42,813 nucleotides of DNA from an uncultured Caryophanales bacterium (GCA_946623125.1 CAMOQR010000010.1:1-42813); one strand, 5' to 3'. Shown: positions 8,285-42,666, counted from the stretch's first letter. A program made the numbers and translations. Notes: a model not told the origin generated them from the letters alone.

Positions 8285-10561
8285 ATGAAAAAACAAAAGA
8301 ATGGAAAGAAAAGAGTAATTATTACTTCTCTTATTTTAATTGTTTTGATTGTTGGAATTGGTTTTTCATTTATACCATTATTTAAAAATTTGAAATTTGG
8401 ATTAGACTTACAAGGTGGTTTTGAAATTCTTTATAAGGCTAGTTCTATTGATGGTTCTAAAATGACAAATGAAAAAATTACAGCAACGTATAAAACATTA
8501 AGTAAGAGAATTGATAGTTTAGGGGTTAGTGAACCTGAAATTATTATTGAAGGTAATGATAAAATACGTGTAAAGTTGGCTGGTGTTAAGAATCCAGAAG
8601 AGGCTAGAACACAGTTATCTACAGTTGCTACTTTATCATTCCGTGATACGGAAGATAATTTATTGATGAGTAGTGATGTATTAAAAGCAGGTGGTGCTAA
8701 AATTAGTCAAGATTCTGCTGGTAATCCTGCTGTTTTATTAACTGTTAAAGATAAAGATAAATTTTATGAAGTTACTAATACCATTAGTAAGCAAGATAAT
8801 AATATGATTGTTATTTGGCTTGATTATAATGACTTGAGAGATAGTTATGAAAAAGAGGGTAGTAAGTGTGGAACAAGTGAATCTAATTGTTTAAGTGCTG
8901 CTACGGTATCTCAAGGATTTGCAAGTGACGTTATTATTCAAGGTAATTTTACACAAGAAGAGGTAAGCAATTTGGTGGATTTAATTAATAGTGGATCTTT
9001 ACCAAGCAAATTAACTGAGATTAGTTCTAATACAGTTGGTGCATCTTTTGGTGAGAAAACATTATCAACTACTTTAGTTGCTGGTATTATTGCCATTATT
9101 GCTATTGCATTTATTCTAATTTTTGTATATCATTTTGCAGGATTTATATCTTCTGTTTCTATGATTCTTTATACCTTTTTAGTATTTGGTGTATTTTGGG
9201 TAGTAGGTGGCGTTTTAACATTACCTGGAATTGCTGCTTTGGTACTTGGTATTGGTATGGCGGTAGATTCTAATGTTATTACATTTGCTCGTATTCGTGA
9301 AGAATTATTAAAAGGTAGGAGTCTACCTACAGCATTTAATGAGGGTTCTCGTGAAAGTTTTAGTGCTATTTTAGATTCTAATCTTACTACTTTAATTGTT
9401 GCTATTATTATGTTTGTGTTAGGAGAATCTAGTATTAAAGGTTTTGCTACGATGTTAATTATCACAATTATAGTTACGATGTTTACTATGGTATTTTTAA
9501 CTAGATTCTTATTAAAACAATTTGTTAAAACAGATTATTTTAATGATAGGCTTGGATTGTTTTTAAATGTTCGTTCTAGTGATATTCCAGATGTTTCTCG
9601 TAATGAGAAAGCAAAACCTAGTAAATTTTCTCAGGTTAACTTCTTAAAACCTCGTTATCTATGTTTAGGCGTTTCTTGTCTTATTATTGTAGTTGGATGT
9701 TTCTTCTTTGCTTTTAAGGGATTTCATTTAAGTATTGATTATAAAACCGGTACTGATATTTCTATTGTTACAGATCAGAAAGTAACAAAGACTCAATTAA
9801 AAGAGGATTTAAATGAATTGGGATTAAAATCAAGTAGTATTACGATTACATCGGATGAGACTGATATTCGTATTAATGATGCAATTGACGGAGATAAAGT
9901 AAAAGAAGTTAATGCTTTCTTTGAAGAAAAATATGATGCTAAAGTAAATATTGGTGTTGTTACAAATATTGTACAAAGAGAACTTGTTAAAAATGCTATT
10001 TTATCAGTATTGATTGCATTTTTAGGAATTATTATCTATATTTCTATTCGTTTTAAATTTAGTTATGCTATTGGTGGTACAATTGCTTTAATTCATGATG
10101 TTTTGATTATGTTTAGTGTATTTGCAATTTTCCGTTTTGAAGTTAGTTCTATGTTTATTGCAGCAGTTCTTGCAATTATTGGATATTCTATTAATGATAC
10201 GATTGTTTCTTTTGATCGTGTACGTGAAAATATTCGTAATTACGATTCTAAAAAATTAGATGCTAATGCTTTAGAAGAGATTGTTAATCGCAGTATTCAA
10301 GAGACTTTCTCAAGAACAATTTATACAACTATTACTACTGTTTTACCAGTTGTTGTATTAATGGTTCTTGGTTCTCGAGGAATCTTTACTTTTAATATTG
10401 CTATGTTAATTGGTTTAATTGCAGGTACTTATTCTTCTATCTTTATTGCAGCAACTTTCTTCTTAATGATAGAAAAACGTTTCTTAGGAAAGAAGAGTAA
10501 ACCAAAAAAAGTATATAAAGATGATATGGAAGAAAAGATGATTAAAGGAATTAATTGTTAA
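8285..10561 (+). CDS. secDF: SecDF protein-export membrane protein (SecD-SecF fusion)
   Basis: GLDLQGGFEILY, GIGMAVDSNVITFARIREEL (SecD), IDYKTGTDI, IGYSINDTIVSFDRVRENIR (SecF) in one ORF. Confidence 0.97.
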   Translation: MKKQKNGKKRVIITSLILIVLIVGIGFSFIPLFKNLKFGLDLQGGFEILYKASSIDGSKMTNEKITATYKTLSKRIDSLGVSEPEIIIEGNDKIRVKLAGVKNPEEARTQLSTVATLSFRDTEDNLLMSSDVLKAGGAKISQDSAGNPAVLLTVKDKDKFYEVTNTISKQDNNMIVIWLDYNDLRDSYEKEGSKCGTSESNCLSAATVSQGFASDVIIQGNFTQEEVSNLVDLINSGSLPSKLTEISSNTVGASFGEKTLSTTLVAGIIAIIAIAFILIFVYHFAGFISSVSMILYTFLVFGVFWVVGGVLTLPGIAALVLGIGMAVDSNVITFARIREELLKGRSLPTAFNEGSRESFSAILDSNLTTLIVAIIMFVLGESSIKGFATMLIITIIVTMFTMVFLTRFLLKQFVKTDYFNDRLGLFLNVRSSDIPDVSRNEKAKPSKFSQVNFLKPRYLCLGVSCLIIVVGCFFFAFKGFHLSIDYKTGTDISIVTDQKVTKTQLKEDLNELGLKSSSITITSDETDIRINDAIDGDKVKEVNAFFEEKYDAKVNIGVVTNIVQRELVKNAILSVLIAFLGIIIYISIRFKFSYAIGGTIALIHDVLIMFSVFAIFRFEVSSMFIAAVLAIIGYSINDTIVSFDRVRENIRNYDSKKLDANALEEIVNRSIQETFSRTIYTTITTVLPVVVLMVLGSRGIFTFNIAMLIGLIAGTYSSIFIAATFFLMIEKRFLGKKSKPKKVYKDDMEEKMIKGINC

Positions 10562-32449: not shown

Positions 32450-33139
32450 ATGGCTAAAAAAGTTGTTAAAAAAACAAGAATTAAACTATTCAATTTATTG
32501 CTAGTTCTTCTTATTTTAACAGGACTATTTTTTGGTGTAAAATTTTTATTTCAAATTCCTATTCAAAATATTATAATAGTTGGAAATCAATATTTAGAAG
32601 ATGATTATATTCTAAATCTTACTGATATTGGGGATTATCCTTCTTTTTTATTAACTCCCATCCATTCTAATGAGGAAAAAATTTCAAAATCTAATTATAT
32701 TGATTCTTGTAAGATTCGAAAGAAGTGGGGTTTTTTATTAGAAATAGAGATTAATGAGAATCGTGCTTTATTTTATGATATGAATCAAGAAAAGTTTGTT
32801 TTTAATAATGGTGAAAGTGTTGAAAAAGATGATATTTCACGTTCTTTTCGTGTTCCTAGATTATTAAATTATGTACCTGATAAAAAGTTTAAAAAGTTTT
32901 TAAAAGGAATGGGTAATATAAAAAATGATATTTTATCTAAGATTAGTGATATTGAATATCAACCAAATGATTATGATAAAGATCGTTTCTTATTATATAT
33001 GGATGATGGAAATATGGTATATCTTACTTTGACTAAGTTTAAGATGATAAATCAGTATAATAATGTATTATCTCAATTAGAAAATCATAAGGGTATTTTG
33101 TATTTAGATTCTGGAAATCATTTTCAAATTAAGGAGTAG
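32450..33139 (+). CDS. divIB: Cell-division protein DivIB/FtsQ
   Basis: Basic N-terminus, one TM, POTRA-like start IPIQNIIIVGNQYLEDDYIL; position after murG-murB. Confidence 0.85.
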   Translation: MAKKVVKKTRIKLFNLLLVLLILTGLFFGVKFLFQIPIQNIIIVGNQYLEDDYILNLTDIGDYPSFLLTPIHSNEEKISKSNYIDSCKIRKKWGFLLEIEINENRALFYDMNQEKFVFNNGESVEKDDISRSFRVPRLLNYVPDKKFKKFLKGMGNIKNDILSKISDIEYQPNDYDKDRFLLYMDDGNMVYLTLTKFKMINQYNNVLSQLENHKGILYLDSGNHFQIKE

Positions 33140-33141
33140 TT

Positions 33142-34446
33142 ATGTGTATTATAAAAAAAATAGTTCCATATGTTTTTCTTTATTGTTTTATCTTACTTTG
33201 TCTAATTTTATTTGGATATAATAATACGGATAATATTTGGAATTTTGGTATGGCATTTGCGATACGGAATGGAGAAATTCCTTATGTAGATTTTAATATT
33301 ATTACAACACCACTTTATGCTTTTTGCATGAGTCTTTTTTTGTTATTTAAAAAGAGTTATTTCTTATTTTTAATGGGCCAATCTTTTTTATGTGTTTGTT
33401 TTTTTTCTCTTATTTATAAAATGATTGGTAAAAAGATTGTTTTTTTAATTCCTATTATTTTTTTATCTTCTTGTTACATGATTTTTCCGAATTATAATTT
33501 TTTAGTTACTTTTTTTATTTTGCTTCTTATTTATTATGATTCAAAAAATGGTAATGATTATTGGATTGGATTTTTATTAGGATTATTGTTTCTTACTAAA
33601 CATACCATAGGTTTTGTTTTTATTGTCTTTTCCCTTATTTCTACTTTTTCTACTTCTAAGAGTTGGAAGAGAGTATTAGGGTGTATTGTTCCTTTGTTTT
33701 TCTTCTTTTTCTATTTAGTTTTTACAAATTCTCTTTCTTCTTTTATCAATCTATCCATTATGGGGTTATTTGATTTTGGACATGATAATGGAGGCGTTTT
33801 ATATTTTTTCCTTATTTTATCATTTTTCATTTTCCTTTATACTATTTATCATTTTTATAAAGAACCTAAAAATAAAAACAATTATTATTTATTTGCCAGT
33901 ATAAGTTTTGTTTTTCCTATTTGTGATTTTTTTCATTTTAATTATTTATTATTGATATTTTTTGTTCTTTTTCTATCTCGAAAGGATTTTGTTTTAAAAA
34001 AATATTATTATATCTCTTATATTTTTGTATTATTTTTCTTTATTTTAAATATTCGTAATAATATTGATACTTATCGATCTTTTTCTTTTTCTTCTCTTCC
34101 ACATTTTGAGGGATTGGTTGTGACGAGGGAGTTAGATTCTTATTTAAGAATGGTAAAAAGTCAATATCAAAAAAGAAAAAACTCTGTGATGATTAGTATG
34201 TCTAATATGATTTTTGATGTATCTCTTGATCATAAAATCACATATTTTGATATTCCTTTATATGGTAATTTTGGATATCATGGAGTAGATTCTATGATTT
34301 TAAAAATAGAAGATATGCATGATACTTATTTTTATATTCAAGATAGTCATAATGTTCAATTTTGTATTGAACTAAATCAGTATATTAGAAAACATTATGA
34401 ATTAATTGATAAAATAGAGGGGTATGAAATTTATTATAAAAAATAA
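33142..34446 (+). CDS. Polytopic membrane protein, putative GT-C/GT39-like glycosyltransferase
   Basis: About 10 hydrophobic segments; AIRNGEIPYVDFNIITTPLYAF resembles the 'G.iPY.Df....Pl' loop of GT-C transferases. Confidence 0.6.
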   Translation: MCIIKKIVPYVFLYCFILLCLILFGYNNTDNIWNFGMAFAIRNGEIPYVDFNIITTPLYAFCMSLFLLFKKSYFLFLMGQSFLCVCFFSLIYKMIGKKIVFLIPIIFLSSCYMIFPNYNFLVTFFILLLIYYDSKNGNDYWIGFLLGLLFLTKHTIGFVFIVFSLISTFSTSKSWKRVLGCIVPLFFFFFYLVFTNSLSSFINLSIMGLFDFGHDNGGVLYFFLILSFFIFLYTIYHFYKEPKNKNNYYLFASISFVFPICDFFHFNYLLLIFFVLFLSRKDFVLKKYYYISYIFVLFFFILNIRNNIDTYRSFSFSSLPHFEGLVVTRELDSYLRMVKSQYQKRKNSVMISMSNMIFDVSLDHKITYFDIPLYGNFGYHGVDSMILKIEDMHDTYFYIQDSHNVQFCIELNQYIRKHYELIDKIEGYEIYYKK

Positions 34447-34457
34447 ATTGTTTATGA

Positions 34458-34463
34458 TATACT
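34458..34463 (+). promoter_or_regulatory. Extended -10 (TGaTATACT)
   Basis: TGATATACT upstream of the 34486 ORF; no convincing -35. Confidence 0.4.
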
Positions 34464-34485
34464 AAAAAAGTAGGATGTGATTTAT

Positions 34486-34629
34486 ATGTATTTTGATCCA
34501 GGAACTGGAAGTTTAGTAATTCAATTGTTATTAGCCTTTTTTGCATCTATTGGTGCTTTTTTTGCTTTTTTTCGTACGAAAATAAAAGGATTATTTCATA
34601 GAAAAGATGATGAAAATGAAAAAAAATAG
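34486..34629 (+). CDS. 47-aa 'DPGTGS' membrane microprotein
   Basis: ATG after GGATGTG; MYFDPGTGSLVIQLLLAFFASIGAFFAFFRTKIKGLFHRKDDENEKK; overlaps the next gene by 23 nt; not in the ORF track. Confidence 0.85.
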   Translation: MYFDPGTGSLVIQLLLAFFASIGAFFAFFRTKIKGLFHRKDDENEKK

Positions 34630-35980
34630 AGACTTTTCTTCTTTCAGAGATCCTTCTGGATATATCTATTATCAAGATGGGGTTGTTATGAGATATATAT
34701 ATCCCTGTTATTTTAAACAATATGATCATTTGATGAGGAGTGGATTATATCAAGAATTAGTTGAGAAGGGGCTTTTAATACCTCATGAAGAAGTAGAAAG
34801 AGATTCTAATCACATTCTTTTGAAAGTTCAAAAGATTCCTTTTATTTCTTATTCTTATGAATGGGTTTTTGAACAATTAAAAGATGCTGCTTTATTAACT
34901 CTTTCCGTTTTACAAATTTCTTTAAAGTATGGAATGATTTTAAAAGACTGTAGTAGTTATAATGTACAGTTTTTAAAGGGAAAAGCAATTTTTATCGATA
35001 CCTTATCTTTTGATTTTTATCAAGATAATATGCCTTGGTTATCTTATGGACAGTTTAGTAGACATTTTCTTGCTCCTTTAATTTTAATGAAATATGTCGA
35101 TTATCGATTAAACTCTCTTATGAAAAATTATATTGACGGAATTCCTTTAGATTTATGTTCTCATTTATTAGGAAGAAGAGGGGGATTTATTGGATATTCT
35201 CATATAAAATTACAGAATAAGAGTATACAAAATCATCAAATGGATGGTAGAGAAGAAGTACCTCAAGTTCATATTTCTAAAAAGTCTTTATTTCAGATGA
35301 TTCAAATGGTAGAAAGACAAATTAAAAGACTTTCTTTAAAAGATTTTTCTAGTGAATGGGATGACTATTATCAAAATTCGAATTATTTTGATGCGATGAA
35401 TGAAAAGAAAAGAATTATTTCTGAAATGTGTCAGAAAATAAGTATATCAGATGATTCTCTTTCTTTTGATTTAGGGGGGAATGATGGAAGATTTTCTTCT
35501 TTGATATATCATATTTTTCATAATCATGTTGTATCTTTTGATATTGATTCAAATGCAGTTAGTCGCAATTATTTAAAGAATAAGGAAAAACAAACTTCTA
35601 TTTTACCTCTTGTTATGGATTTTACAAATCCATCTAGTGGGATAGGATTTGCAAATTGTGAAAGAATGAGTTTTATGGAAAGAGGAGGAGCATCTCTTAC
35701 TTTAGTTTTAGCCTTTCTTCATCATTTAGTGATTTCTAATAACTTATCTTTTGAAATGGTATCTCATTTTCTTTCGTCTATTACGCATTATCTTATTATT
35801 GAATTTGTACCTAAAGAGGATTCTCAAGTACAATTACTTTTAAAAACAAGAGAAGATATTTTTAAAGATTATGATATTCAGCATTTCAAAGATGTATTTT
35901 CAAATGATTTTAATATTTTAGAAGAGGTTTTAATTCCTAACACGAAAAGGACTTTATTCTTAATGGAGGTTTTGAAATGA
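34607..35980 (+). CDS. Kinase-like N-terminal domain fused to class I SAM methyltransferase
   Basis: RDPSGYIYYQDGVVMRYIYP, LKDCSSYNVQFLKGKAIFIDTLSF (kinase-like loop) and C-terminal LSFDLGGNDGRFSSL..VSFDIDSNAV (Rossmann). Confidence 0.75.
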   Translation: MMKMKKNRDFSSFRDPSGYIYYQDGVVMRYIYPCYFKQYDHLMRSGLYQELVEKGLLIPHEEVERDSNHILLKVQKIPFISYSYEWVFEQLKDAALLTLSVLQISLKYGMILKDCSSYNVQFLKGKAIFIDTLSFDFYQDNMPWLSYGQFSRHFLAPLILMKYVDYRLNSLMKNYIDGIPLDLCSHLLGRRGGFIGYSHIKLQNKSIQNHQMDGREEVPQVHISKKSLFQMIQMVERQIKRLSLKDFSSEWDDYYQNSNYFDAMNEKKRIISEMCQKISISDDSLSFDLGGNDGRFSSLIYHIFHNHVVSFDIDSNAVSRNYLKNKEKQTSILPLVMDFTNPSSGIGFANCERMSFMERGGASLTLVLAFLHHLVISNNLSFEMVSHFLSSITHYLIIEFVPKEDSQVQLLLKTREDIFKDYDIQHFKDVFSNDFNILEEVLIPNTKRTLFLMEVLK

Positions 35981-37527
35981 AAAATAAATATTTTTCAGTT
36001 TTTACAATTCTTCCTGTTTTGTTTTCTTTTACTTGTCTTTTGTTCTTATATACTTCTAATTTTTCTATTAATGGTGCAAGTTATGAGATATTTTTTGTTG
36101 AAGTTCTTAAAGTGTTCTTCTTATTTTTTATGATACATATACTTTTCTATTTTATCATGTCTCGTTTTTCTTTCTTTCCTCATTTTCTTCTTTATTTTGA
36201 ATTGCTTTTTATTCTGTTTTTTTTCTTAAAATTTCCTGTATGGATTTTATTCCTTTCTTTTTTTATTCTTTTATCTTTTAAAAAAGTATCTGTTACGTTT
36301 TCTGCTTTTTTTGATGCTTTTACTACTATTTTTTCTATTATGACGTGTTTTTTATTTCTTTATCATTTTGGATTATCCCTTTATTATATTGCATCTTTTC
36401 ATAATAGAGAAAAAGTAGTAGAACCACAGTATCCTACTAATATTGATTCTTCTCTTCCTAGTCCTAATATTTATTGGATTCATATGGATGGAATGCCTAG
36501 TCTTTCTTTTATGGAAAAGTATTATGATGCTTCTTATCCTGAGTTTACTAACTTTTTAGAAGAGCATCAGTTTCGTACTTCATTTGATTCATCTCTTCAA
36601 GTAGGTCATCATACTTTAACTTCTTTGGCTGCTATGTATAATCCTAATTATTATGATTCTTTTTTGAAGAGTTATTTAAAAGAACTTGATGATTGTTCTA
36701 TCAAGCATTGCAAAGTGAAGGATACAGTTTCTTTTGATGAGATTACTTATCATAGACTTTATAATGAGATGTTTCATGCTTTTCAAAAGAAGGGATATTC
36801 TATTGTTTCTGTTACAGAATTTAATCAATATACTTCTTTTTTAAGTGATTATACTTATGATCTTTCTTCTTTAAATGCTTCTTTTATTCCTAAGTATTCT
36901 CATATTTCGGACGAAGATACATTTTCTTATATTTATGATAGTCATTTTCATTCTTTTATTCAAAATATATTTGGTTATTCTTATCCTTTAAAGAATTATA
37001 CTTCTCAAAAAGTAAAATATTCTAATTTTTCTGCATATCCATTTATTTCTAAAAGTTCTTATTTACCAGTGCGTGCTGCCCTTAGTGGGATTGAGGATAG
37101 TAAATTATCTCTTTCAAATCCTAGGTTTACTTTTATTGACCAATCTATTATGCATCTTAATTGGAATTATGATGAGAATGGTAAAAAAATTGGGGATCAT
37201 AATACCAATTTAGATGATTTTTTGGGGAATTATACTTATACATTGAAATTATTAGAAGAGATGATTTTATATATTCAAGATAGGGATCCTTCTAGTGTTA
37301 TTATTATTCAGGGGGATCATGGAATTCATTTTTTAGATGAAAAAACTTTAATGAATTATTTCCATATTAGTAGAGAAGAGACTCTTTCTTTTAGAAATTC
37401 TGTTATGAGTGCTTGCTTTATTCCAGATAAATCTTTGGATAATCAAAAGATACTTGATAATCCTTTAAATATTAGTAGATATTTAATAAATCATTATGTT
37501 GGAAATAATTATGAATACCTCAAATAA
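35977..37527 (+). CDS. Membrane alkaline-phosphatase-superfamily (sulfatase/phosphoglycerol-transferase-like) protein
   Basis: N-terminal TM bundle then extracytoplasmic domain NIYWIHMDGMPSLSFMEKYY...VIIIQGDHGIHF (metal-site DHG). Confidence 0.75.
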   Translation: MKNKYFSVFTILPVLFSFTCLLFLYTSNFSINGASYEIFFVEVLKVFFLFFMIHILFYFIMSRFSFFPHFLLYFELLFILFFFLKFPVWILFLSFFILLSFKKVSVTFSAFFDAFTTIFSIMTCFLFLYHFGLSLYYIASFHNREKVVEPQYPTNIDSSLPSPNIYWIHMDGMPSLSFMEKYYDASYPEFTNFLEEHQFRTSFDSSLQVGHHTLTSLAAMYNPNYYDSFLKSYLKELDDCSIKHCKVKDTVSFDEITYHRLYNEMFHAFQKKGYSIVSVTEFNQYTSFLSDYTYDLSSLNASFIPKYSHISDEDTFSYIYDSHFHSFIQNIFGYSYPLKNYTSQKVKYSNFSAYPFISKSSYLPVRAALSGIEDSKLSLSNPRFTFIDQSIMHLNWNYDENGKKIGDHNTNLDDFLGNYTYTLKLLEEMILYIQDRDPSSVIIIQGDHGIHFLDEKTLMNYFHISREETLSFRNSVMSACFIPDKSLDNQKILDNPLNISRYLINHYVGNNYEYLK

Positions 37528-37530
37528 TAT

Positions 37531-37558
37531 TTGCAAAAATAATAAAATATTGTATAAT
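37531..37558 (+). promoter_or_regulatory. ftsAZ promoter
   Basis: TTGCAA, 16 nt, TATAAT with TG extension. Confidence 0.6.
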
Positions 37559-37575: not shown

Positions 37576-38820
37576 ATGAGGATTGTGAGCGATGTTTATA
37601 CTGGTATTGATTTAGGTACAGATAGCATTAAAATCATAGTTTGTGAAAAATTTCATGATCAATATCATGTGTTGGCAACTCATTGTGCATCATCTGCTGG
37701 CATTAAAGATGGATTTGTTGTTGATATGAAGTCTTGTGTTAATAGTGTGAAAAATGCTGTTAAAAATGCAAATGATCTTTTGGGAATTGCTATTAATAAA
37801 GTGGTTTGTTGTGTTCCTCCAAAAGATTGTAAGATGGATATTGTAAGTGGTTCGTGTTCTGTAGTAGATTATAATGAAATAACAGGACTTGATGTTAGTA
37901 ATGTATTGTTGGATGCTTTGAAAAAAGTAAATCTTACAAATGATGAATTGGTTACTGCTATGCCTATACATTTTACGATTGATGATGATGTTGTTGTTCA
38001 TGATCCTAAAGGTATGCATGGTAGTGTTTTAAATGCTAAAGTTGTTGTAAGTACTACGCCGAAAGAGCCTTTATATCGTATTTTAGAAGTATTGAAGTTA
38101 AGTGGTTTAGAAACTGTTGATATTTGTTATTCTTCTTTTGGGGATTATTATTCTTTGGCAGATAAGAAGTATGATGAATTGGTTGGTGCGATTATTAATA
38201 TTGGGGAAGAATCTACCAATGTTTCTGTGTTTAATCGTGGAATTCAAATAAAAAATGGAGTTTTACCTGTAGGAAGTAAAAACGTTGATAAAGATTTAAT
38301 GTATGCATTTAAGGCTAAATTAAGTGATTGTCGAGAGTTAAAAGAAGAGTTTGCAATTTCTGTTTCTGCTTTGGCTAGTGAGGATGATATTTGGGATTTG
38401 ACAGTTGATAATAATGAGGTAAAAAAAGTTTCTCAATTGTCTGTTTCTAAGGTAGTTGAGGCGCGTGTTCGTGAAATTTTAAAACTTGCCAAAAATGAAA
38501 TAAAAAACTTAACAAATAGAGAAATACGTTATATAATGATAACAGGTGGCTTAAGCGAATTGGCTGGTTTTTCTACTTTGGTAGAACAGGAATTTGGTTT
38601 CGTTGCTAAAGTAGGAAATATTCCTATAATTGGAATTCGACATAATAAGTTTAGTAGTTGTTTTGGAATTATTAAATTTTTTAATGATAAATTGGAATTA
38701 AGAGGAAAAGATTATAACATGTTTACGAAGGAAGAGTTGGAGTCTATAATGTTATCTTCCCGCGATATGTCTGGAAATAACCTAACTAGTAAAATGTTTG
38801 ATCATTATTTTGATGATTAG
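37576..38820 (+). CDS. ftsA: Cell-division protein FtsA
   Basis: [46 protein letters not shown]; upstream of ftsZ. GTG at 37585 has better RBS spacing. Confidence 0.93.
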
Positions 38821-39992: not shown

Positions 39993-40077
39993 ACGTAAAC
40001 TTTTATTTCTTCTAAATTTTTTCTTTTTTTTTACTACTTATAAATATATAATAAAATTAGAATATGGGATGGTGTTT

Positions 40078-42666
40078 ATGAAAAAAAAATATCTTTTTAA
40101 ATTATTCGTTTTCTTGCTTCTTTGTTTTAATTCTTTTTCTGTTTTTGCAAAAGATGTTGAAATTGAAAATGTTCGTATTGTCGAAAAAAGTGGAACAGTC
40201 GATGCAGATAATATTTCTTATCAAAATAGTACGATTTCTCCTAAGATTGTATTTCATCAGCTAAATGATTTTATAACATTAGAGGTAAATATTCAAAACA
40301 AAAGTAATATAGATTATCGACTTTCTTCTATTTCTAATGAGTTGAATAATAATTATTTAATGCTTGATTCCTCTTCTTATGGTAGTGTTATTCCAGGCAA
40401 TAGTACACAATCTTTTTTAGTTAAAGTTTTATATAATAATCAATTATATAATCAAGATGAATTTGTATCAAAAGATTTATCATTTTCTTTAGTTTTTGTT
40501 GATAGTACTAAGTTAGAAAATGCATTTACGGGAAATACGATATTTTTAATTATTGTGTTTATTCTTTTAACTTTTGCGGTTTGTTTATGTTATTTTTTAT
40601 TTACGAAGAGAAAGAAAAGAGTATGTTTATTATTTCTGTTATTTGTCCCATTAGTTGTTCTTGCTAAAGAAGAAGACATAAACTGTAAAATATCATTTGA
40701 TCAATTGGTTGTTAAAGGAACATTTTTAGATTATCAAGTAGTTTTAAAAGATGATAATAATATAGTAGATTCTTATGTTAAAGTTTATGGAAAAAAGATT
40801 GATGCTCTTCCTGTAATGGAAAAAGATGGTTATGTATTTAATGGATGGGTTGATCAATTCAATAATGATGTTTCAAATGATTTGATTGTAACTCAAGATC
40901 TTAATTTAGTTGCTTCTTATCTTCCTATATCTTATTCCATTACTTATCAATTAAACGGTGGTATTGAGAAGACAAATCCAACTAAGTATACGATTGAAGA
41001 TGAATTTATGTTAAAAAATCCTACAAAGGTTGGTTATACTTTTTCTGGATGGAGTGTAGATGATGATAATAGTCTTCAAACTAATATTACTATTTTTAAA
41101 GGAACAAAAGGTGATAAAGTATTTACTGCTCATTATTCTACTAATAAAAATACTGAGTATACTGTAATTCATAGATTAATGGATATGAATGGAAATTATG
41201 TCGAAAAAGATAGAGAAACATTACATGGGGCAACTGATACGACTGTTTCTCCTCAAGTAAAAACATATGAAGGATTTATTTCTCCACCAAAACAATCTAA
41301 GGCTATTTCGGGAGATGGATTAACAACATTCATTTATGATTATCAAAGAGCAAAATATTCTTTTACGATATCAGATCGTTCTCATCTAACATCATCTTCA
41401 TCGCCTAATGGAGAATATTATTATGGAACTTCTTTAAGTGTTTCTGTCAATCCTATTAGCGGTTACCATATTTCTTGGAGTGATGGAGATACAAATTATA
41501 ATCGTACGTTTTCTATTAAAGAAAATCTTACGTTAAGTTATCAATATCTACCAAATACAGACACAGAATATACCGTTATTCATAAGAAGATGAATCTCGA
41601 TGGAACATCTTATACTACTGCAGATCATGCAATATTTAAAGGTACGACAGATTCTACTGTTACACCTAATGTAAATCAATATGAAGGTTTTACCTCTCCA
41701 AATGTTCAAAGTTTATTGATTACAGGGGATGGTAATGCAACAATAACCTATTATTATCAAAGAAATAAATATCATTTAACTTTAAAAGATGCAGGTCGTA
41801 TTACGACAAGATTTTCCTCAGGAGATTACTATTATGGTACATCTATTACGATTAAGGCCAATTGTATTACAGGTTATAAATTCTCTAAATGGAGTAATGA
41901 AATTACTCAGTATAATTATACTTTTGAATTGAAAGAAGATGTTACTTTATCACCAGTTTATGTTACAAGGCCATCTGGTACAACACCTTCAGAATGTTCA
42001 ACTAATAATAATCCTTTGTGTTTAAGTGGAGAGATGGAAGTGGTGATATATGATAAGAAAAAGAAAAAAAGATTTATGAAAAAATTAAAAGATGTTACTT
42101 TAGATGATTTAATTCTAACTTGGAATTTTGATACTGGCGAATTTGAATTTGTTGAGCCTTCTTTTATCCGAAAAATAGTAGTTTCTGATACTCATTATGT
42201 TTTAACATTTAGTGATGGAAGTATTTTAGATGTTATAGGTGATCATAGACTTTTCAATTTAGATAAGAACGAGTTTACTCATTGTGTTTCTGATATTGAA
42301 ACTCCTATTGGAACTAAAACGATAAATGATAAAGGTGAGGTTATTGTATTAGTTTCTAAAGAGATTGTGTATAGCCCAGTTGATGTATGTAGTGTTATTA
42401 CAAAGAAGAATTTTAATTTTTATGCAAATGGGATTTTAACTTCTATTTCGTTAAATAATCTATATCCTATTCAAGATATGAAATTTGTTAAGACTTCTCG
42501 TAAAACGATTCAATTTAATGATTTAGATGTTGATAGAGAATTATTTGATGTTTTGCGTTATGGTGAGTTTAGTGATGATTTTGATGGCGAGTTTGAGTAT
42601 ACTAAGCGCTTTTTAGAACATTATGCTAAAGATTTAGCATCTGATCAATTTATTTCAAAAAAATAA
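40078..42666 (+). CDS. Large surface protein: signal peptide, two TM segments, InlB-type B-repeat-like and MucBP-like repeats, C-terminal Hint domain
   Basis: Start MKKKYLFKLFVFLLLCFNSFSVFAKD; GYVFNGWVDQFNN, GYTFSGWSVDDDN; paired TEYTVIH...repeats; CLSGEMEVVIYD...GDHRLFNL...NFYANGILTS Hint motifs. Track start 39760 overlaps ftsZ and is not credible. Confidence 0.85.
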   Translation: MKKKYLFKLFVFLLLCFNSFSVFAKDVEIENVRIVEKSGTVDADNISYQNSTISPKIVFHQLNDFITLEVNIQNKSNIDYRLSSISNELNNNYLMLDSSSYGSVIPGNSTQSFLVKVLYNNQLYNQDEFVSKDLSFSLVFVDSTKLENAFTGNTIFLIIVFILLTFAVCLCYFLFTKRKKRVCLLFLLFVPLVVLAKEEDINCKISFDQLVVKGTFLDYQVVLKDDNNIVDSYVKVYGKKIDALPVMEKDGYVFNGWVDQFNNDVSNDLIVTQDLNLVASYLPISYSITYQLNGGIEKTNPTKYTIEDEFMLKNPTKVGYTFSGWSVDDDNSLQTNITIFKGTKGDKVFTAHYSTNKNTEYTVIHRLMDMNGNYVEKDRETLHGATDTTVSPQVKTYEGFISPPKQSKAISGDGLTTFIYDYQRAKYSFTISDRSHLTSSSSPNGEYYYGTSLSVSVNPISGYHISWSDGDTNYNRTFSIKENLTLSYQYLPNTDTEYTVIHKKMNLDGTSYTTADHAIFKGTTDSTVTPNVNQYEGFTSPNVQSLLITGDGNATITYYYQRNKYHLTLKDAGRITTRFSSGDYYYGTSITIKANCITGYKFSKWSNEITQYNYTFELKEDVTLSPVYVTRPSGTTPSECSTNNNPLCLSGEMEVVIYDKKKKKRFMKKLKDVTLDDLILTWNFDTGEFEFVEPSFIRKIVVSDTHYVLTFSDGSILDVIGDHRLFNLDKNEFTHCVSDIETPIGTKTINDKGEVIVLVSKEIVYSPVDVCSVITKKNFNFYANGILTSISLNNLYPIQDMKFVKTSRKTIQFNDLDVDRELFDVLRYGEFSDDFDGEFEYTKRFLEHYAKDLASDQFISKK
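41152..41972 (+). repeat. Two diverged tandem copies of about 137 aa (41152-41562, 41563-~41972)
   Basis: Both run TEYTVIH..M...G......ATDTTVSP/GTTDSTVTP..YEGF.SP..QS..I.GDG..T..Y.YQR.KY........YYYGTS. Confidence 0.85.

Follow-up and report, generated by a model that had tools for sequence, protein, structure and literature searches.

Why do four genes of apparent envelope function stand between divIB and ftsA, and do they serve cell division? The question arises in a 42,813-nucleotide stretch of DNA from an uncultured Caryophanales bacterium (GCA_946623125.1 CAMOQR010000010.1:1-42813), hereafter the window, in which these genes occupy positions 33142-37527. As a rule, divIB/ftsQ lies close to ftsA-ftsZ. 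A preliminary description made from the sequence read the locus as a four-gene cassette coupled to the septum. Our analysis divides it differently, such that the last three genes form one unit and the first belongs to a separate, variable family sharing the site. We consider the three to be a NoeA-NoeB module with a dedicated membrane microprotein that stands, with the GT-C gene, in a variable surface-glycan island, most likely working by a WbdD-like mechanism; the probability of this reading is roughly 60%. Translation and open reading frame (ORF) checks of the window confirmed the gene order and coordinates described earlier, and the features are as follows.

32450..33139, plus strand: divIB/ftsQ, forming the upstream edge of the variable site (Pfam POTRA_1 and FtsQ_DivIB_C, both above cut-off)
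33142..34446, plus strand: predicted GT-C-fold polytopic membrane protein, 434 amino acids (AlphaFold2 model, ArnT match, island family)
34486..34629, plus strand: DPGTGS microprotein, 47 amino acids, MYFDPGTGSLVIQLLLAFFASIGAFFAFFRTKIKGLFHRKDDENEKK (translation; homologs in noeA-positive relatives)
34607..35980, plus strand: NoeA-family kinase-like/methyltransferase fusion, 457 amino acids (full-length homology, invariant residues)
35977..37527, plus strand: NoeB-position membrane protein of the alkaline phosphatase (AP) superfamily, 516 amino acids (invariant catalytic residues, Foldseek, Pfam matches of homologs)
37530..37558, plus strand: promoter-like element of ftsA, TTGCAA / TATAAT (consensus scan; TATAAT conservation)
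37576..38820, plus strand: ftsA, forming the downstream edge of the variable site (NCBIfam TIGR01174 above cut-off)
from 38847: ftsZ, next after ftsA

The overlapping starts ascribed earlier to the last three genes are real. Taking the first ATG as its start, the fusion gene overlaps the microprotein gene by 23 nucleotides, and it shares ATGA with the AP-superfamily gene. The GT-C ORF begins directly behind divIB (divIB end 33139, GT-C start 33142), and 39 nucleotides without overlap separate it from the microprotein gene. None of the four single cargo proteins of the window scored above cut-off in Pfam or NCBIfam, so they were assigned from alignments, homologs and structure. By these means the gene identities first proposed held in outline, with the NoeA/NoeB identity having been missed.

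Judged by its alignments, the kinase-like/methyltransferase fusion is a full-length NoeA homolog in which both domains, with their kinase and S-adenosylmethionine (SAM) motifs, can be recognized. Homology extends over 98-99% of the fusion, both domains included, and comparison with Sinorhizobium/Ensifer NoeA gives 30% identity (E 2e-49, 98% coverage). A tblastn search of 72,556 plasmids returned 65 records, 62 of them covering at least 80% of the protein, with homologs of ~40% identity in Singulisphaera (Planctomycetota) and Gemmatirosa (Gemmatimonadota), both with E about 1e-100, and in a deltaproteobacterium. The kinase-type residues D114, N119 and D131 (D-x4-N...D) are encoded at 34946, 34961 and 34997, and the SAM motif DLGxNxG begins at 35468; D114, N119, D131, D288, G290, N292 and G294 are invariant across 12 aligned NoeA homologs. 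PDB sequence searches with profiles of the fusion and of the AP-superfamily protein gave noise only. Among 296 genomes of the class and 295 of the phylum, the NoeA profile found, besides the window, only partial matches to the methyltransferase domain, so the trio is rare in the window's phylum. The Lani_1194/NoeA family has been described in a study of the Legionella kinome as a kinase plus methyltransferase present in about 1200 species with a conserved active site, and Lani_1193 and Lani_1195 (a NoeB homolog) accompany it in 65% and 38% of 816 NoeA neighbourhoods (PMC9758233); the core association of NoeA with its neighbours is thus already published. In rhizobia, noeA and noeB are reported to be host-range genes and are presumed to act on Nod factor, which agrees with decoration of a surface or secreted glycan.

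What, then, is the small protein encoded beside NoeA? In the window its motif stands at the extreme N-terminus and is followed by one hydrophobic segment, in keeping with the membrane character attributed to it earlier, and by a basic tail; 13 aligned homologs have in common Y[FLI]D[PA] ... S ... Q. Among 59 related genomes, the microprotein was found in 5 of 5 that carry noeA versus 0 of 54 that do not, with E<1e-12 in those five and 0.0185 as the next best value of the 59. The 5 genomes of 59 that have the microprotein are also the only ones with the fusion, a recurrence far beyond chance. The two genes adjoin one another in 12 of 12 loci (seven Bacilli loci and five plasmid lineages), the microprotein gene preceding noeA in 11 of them and following it only in that of the deltaproteobacterium, where no NoeB was seen. 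When the deltaproteobacterial microprotein was searched against the same plasmids at E<=1, only Sinorhizobium, Rhizobium, Ensifer and the query itself were matched, and all genera with plasmid microprotein matches also hold NoeA matches. The whole trio is present on plasmids of Singulisphaera, Gemmatirosa and Novosphingobium, the last with a degenerate motif (YLDAASAS), and the order nodL-microprotein-noeA-noeB is seen in Ensifer and S. meliloti 1021. On pSymA of the latter (L102, about 419091-419306), nodL and noeA flank a 71-codon DPGTGS ORF, and the frames overlap; the gene table lists no gene at this spot, but it has only one feature for the whole record. The preliminary description had DPG(T/S)GS proteins recurring next to genes for methyltransferases and sulfatase-like enzymes; with AP-superfamily genes in the latter role, such recurrence was found in both Bacilli and plasmid loci. 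A literature search on the DPGTGS/DPGSGS motif returned no relevant paper. By its position, Lani_1193 may be the equivalent of the microprotein, and the text of PMC9758233 does not describe it as a DPGTGS microprotein.

The homologs also suggest how the microprotein may be oriented. In the proteobacterial and Singulisphaera proteins, YLDPG(TGS) comes after 16-24 signal-peptide-like residues, which in most cases end in A(H)A, and in Bacilli and Gemmatirosa the motif begins at residue 2. The homolog tails are mostly basic, otherwise neutral. Since signal-peptide-like leaders precede the motif and the tails are basic or neutral, an N-out/C-in arrangement fits, which would place the motif on the outer side of the membrane and the tail inside the cell.

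Directly 3' of noeA, at the position of noeB, the window encodes a protein with predicted membrane helices and an AP fold. Residues D171, T213, H393 and D447/H448 are encoded at 36487, 36613, 37153 and 37315, and across 11 homologs, rhizobial NoeB included, the first four are invariant and H448 nearly so. A Thr nucleophile with these D/H metal ligands is the catalytic set of LtaS/EptA-type membrane transferases. Rhizobial NoeB has about 14% identity to the window protein in the multiple alignment, and the catalytic residues are common to both. The AlphaFold2 model, built from 7 Bacilli sequences only, has a predicted local distance difference test score (pLDDT) of 77, a predicted template modelling score (pTM) of 0.81 and five N-terminal helices. 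Foldseek places PbgA/YejM, BcsG, LtaS, EptC and MCR-1 ahead of sulfatases, with an LtaS-fold match that is clear by E-value and modest by template modelling (TM) score. Predicted catalytic set and fold together narrow the protein to an LtaS/EptA-type phosphotransferase or hydrolase. Six of the 11 homologs match Pfam Sulfatase and the rhizobial protein is annotated as 'sulfatase-like', which would suggest a formylglycine sulfatase with a role in editing a sulfated glycan; we regard this as highly improbable, since an invariant Thr213, part of GHHT in the window protein, occupies the nucleophile position with no conserved Cys, and since phosphotransferases are the best folds and sulfatases rank lower. 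A formylglycine sulfatase was rejected on the active site itself, where the catalytic Cys/Ser of C/S-x-P/A-x-R is absent and the invariant Thr stands instead, and the earlier 'sulfatase-like' label is to be replaced on the same grounds.

For the first cargo gene, a model built from 41 relatives (AlphaFold2, pLDDT 93.9) has ArnT 5f15 as its best PDB match (E 2.2e-4, Foldseek probability 1.00), followed by archaeal oligosaccharyltransferase and PglB. Within the 41 aligned members, GT87 and PMT_2 are matched by six each, and a conserved Asp after helix 1 (D30) is found in at least 90%. By modelled fold and conserved acidic residue, the protein is a predicted GT-C glycosyltransferase, and its relatives occupy the divIB-ftsA site elsewhere in the genus and in sister genera. 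How variable is this site? Where divIB and ftsA are on one contig, the gap between them in 26 same-genus genomes is 57-116 bp in 6, 0.43-0.79 kb in 2 and 1.4-9.9 kb in 18. Six related genera also have GT-C genes at the site (gap 2.7-7.1 kb), and the two genes are separated by <180 bp, typically about 100 bp, in most of the family's more distant genera (28 of 35, both genes on one contig; counted from coordinates). The cargo consists of 1-4 GT-C paralogs, a flavin amine-oxidoreductase-like protein and several other polytopic GT-C-like families, with LtaS and a CDP-alcohol transferase-like protein seen once. In this genus, divIB-ftsA is a variable island loaded with GT-C and other glycan genes. 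In the gap of one same-genus genome (L024, G007 C6:57800-65291), three GT-C paralogs accompany a canonical-looking LtaS (614 amino acids) and a CDP-alcohol phosphatidyltransferase-like protein. The GT-C-rich island, the ArnT fold and the LtaS-type fold all agree with the surface-glycan theme of the preliminary description.

The claim that ftsA has its own promoter is borne out in part. The consensus scan was uninformative, with 66 promoters found versus 58.8 expected, such that the element is not above chance by that measure, but 39 of 40 related loci retain a TATAAT upstream of ftsA irrespective of the cargo they carry. The cargo therefore sits upstream of a standing ftsA promoter. The sole locus of the 40 that lacks TATAAT is L009 (about 9165-9240, upstream of ftsA), where the trio is at the site.

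Does the position of the trio then reflect a role at the septum? All three genes are present in 7 of 7 Bacilli loci and recur on plasmids of other phyla. The NoeA proteins of the seven Bacilli form one clade (100/100 support in the NoeA tree), which makes one acquisition with later moves or losses likely. In two of the seven loci (L009 and L014) the trio stands alongside a flavin enzyme and GT-C-like genes. The trio-carrying Bacilli genomes are draft metagenome assemblies or fragmented, and the window genome is 71% complete; absences are accordingly approximate. One hypothesis is that the trio is regulated together with ftsAZ and that its product decorates glycan where the cell divides. In its favour, G000, G019 and G031 all carry the trio between divIB and ftsA, and a murG-murB-divIB-cargo transcript is likely, the GT-C gene starting right behind divIB. 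However, the trio is located elsewhere in G003, G008, L013 and L014, linkage to ftsA/divIB thus being seen in 3 of 7 Bacilli trios and 0 of 5 plasmid loci; the trio of rhizobia belongs to a nod operon; the site is empty (<=116 bp) in 6 of 26 same-genus genomes; the conserved ftsA promoter downstream of the cargo separates off ftsAZ; and the three copies at the site may represent one ancestral placement. We therefore consider septal coupling, as first proposed, improbable. Since the trio is at the site in three genomes but elsewhere in four, its link with division is one of location, and its proximity to the division genes most likely reflects insertion site rather than function. Directly 3' of the trio in G008 (L007 4418-5777), a BRO-like antirepressor-type ORF and a fragment like the C-terminal end of a serine recombinase were seen by eye, which hint at a mobile element beside it.

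The reading of a NoeA-NoeB module with a dedicated microprotein draws on observed homology, neighbourhood, folds, catalytic residues and co-occurrence; from these we infer a substrate, an order of steps, a microprotein topology and a physical contact. By analogy with WbdD acting on O-antigen, a cytosolic NoeA-type enzyme would work at the membrane, first phosphorylating a lipid-linked precursor, either a sugar or a glycan, and then methylating the product. The NoeB-type enzyme, which has five predicted membrane helices at its N-terminus and an LtaS-like domain facing outward, would transfer or trim the phospho-substituent outside the cell. The microprotein would span the membrane with its DPGTGS end out and its basic tail in, putatively linking NoeA to NoeB, and the GT-C protein would use a polyprenyl-phosphate donor to attach a sugar outside the cell.

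Several points weigh against this model. Since only 38% of the NoeA neighbourhoods in PMC9758233 include NoeB, the two proteins cannot form a strict relay everywhere, and the literature yielded no activity or substrate for any NoeA or NoeB. The LtaS-fold similarity has a TM-score of only 0.35-0.5 in a model of moderate quality (pLDDT 77), PbgA-type relatives can be non-enzymatic, and the tail of the G031 microprotein has a net charge of 0. Moreover, the NoeA kinase may be inactive. An alternative hypothesis is that the kinase domain is a pseudokinase or a sugar-recognition domain, NoeA only methylating, and that NoeB is a plain phosphodiesterase or phosphatase. The kinase motifs are atypical, the ion-pair glutamate was not found and an Arg has been proposed in place of the catalytic Lys (PMC9758233), and hydrolases are among the AP-superfamily folds; yet D114, N119 and D131 are invariant in five lineages with near-canonical spacing, and conservation of the active site has been published (PMC9758233). 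On balance this alternative is doubtful, though less so than septal coupling.

A bolder proposal, to which we would give somewhat less than even odds, is that the microprotein is a dedicated third NoeA-NoeB subunit from gut Bacilli to rhizobia, a putative transmembrane bridge with its mature N-terminus out and an overlooked gene of the nod box n5 operon, and that divIB-ftsA serves this clade as a dedicated site of surface-glycosyltransferase exchange. NoeA and NoeB are host-range proteins whose chemistry has gone unexplained since 1995, and so small and conserved a partner, with its strict motif, opens the system to experiment. In one clade, a variable glycosyltransferase island breaks the usually tight divIB-ftsA adjacency, which suggests a place of surface-antigen exchange in gut bacteria.

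Two further ORFs of the window were noted. Right behind ftsZ, 40072-42666 encodes a large surface protein with InlB-type repeats (Flg_new, Flg_new_2), whose C-terminal part (CLSGEMEV...DHRLF) resembles a Hint/intein-like domain by eye. The ORF at 787-1578 has a DxxxN...DFE-like pattern (GQMDRFSTNILFE...PLFDFEYS) that appears HipA/kinase-like, again by eye.

How does the locus compare with known systems? The GT-C protein is like ArnT and other GT-C glycosyltransferases in predicted fold (Foldseek probability 1.00) and in the conserved Asp after helix 1, but identity is about 11% and its C-terminal part is smaller. The NoeB-position protein shares with LtaS, EptA and PbgA five predicted N-terminal helices, an outward AP-fold domain, the Thr nucleophile and the D/H metal ligands; identity is 10-16%, and it is not an LtaS ortholog, a separate canonical-looking LtaS being present at the same site in G007. 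WbdD of E. coli O9a acts on a polyprenol-linked glycan, first by phosphorylation and then by methylation (PMC3482155), and the predicted activity of the window fusion would likewise combine kinase and methyltransferase on such a glycan at the membrane. WbdD differs in that its methyltransferase comes first, it has a coiled coil and it lacks a microprotein or NoeB, and its family is only remotely related to that of NoeA (PMC9758233). Lani_1193-1194-1195 of Legionella resembles the trio as a NoeA-family kinase-methyltransferase with two conserved neighbours, whereas placement in a division cluster is not reported in PMC9758233. A close counterpart is the nodL-noeA-noeB operon (nod box n5) of Sinorhizobium, for which PMC9758233 cites Ardourel 1995. 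The window locus differs from it in having neither nodL nor Nod-factor genes, in a microprotein without a signal peptide, in a NoeB identity of only about 14% and in its host, a small-genome gut member of the Bacilli. It resembles that operon in a full-length NoeA homolog with an AP-superfamily protein right behind it and a DPGTGS microprotein right before it, their frames overlapping.

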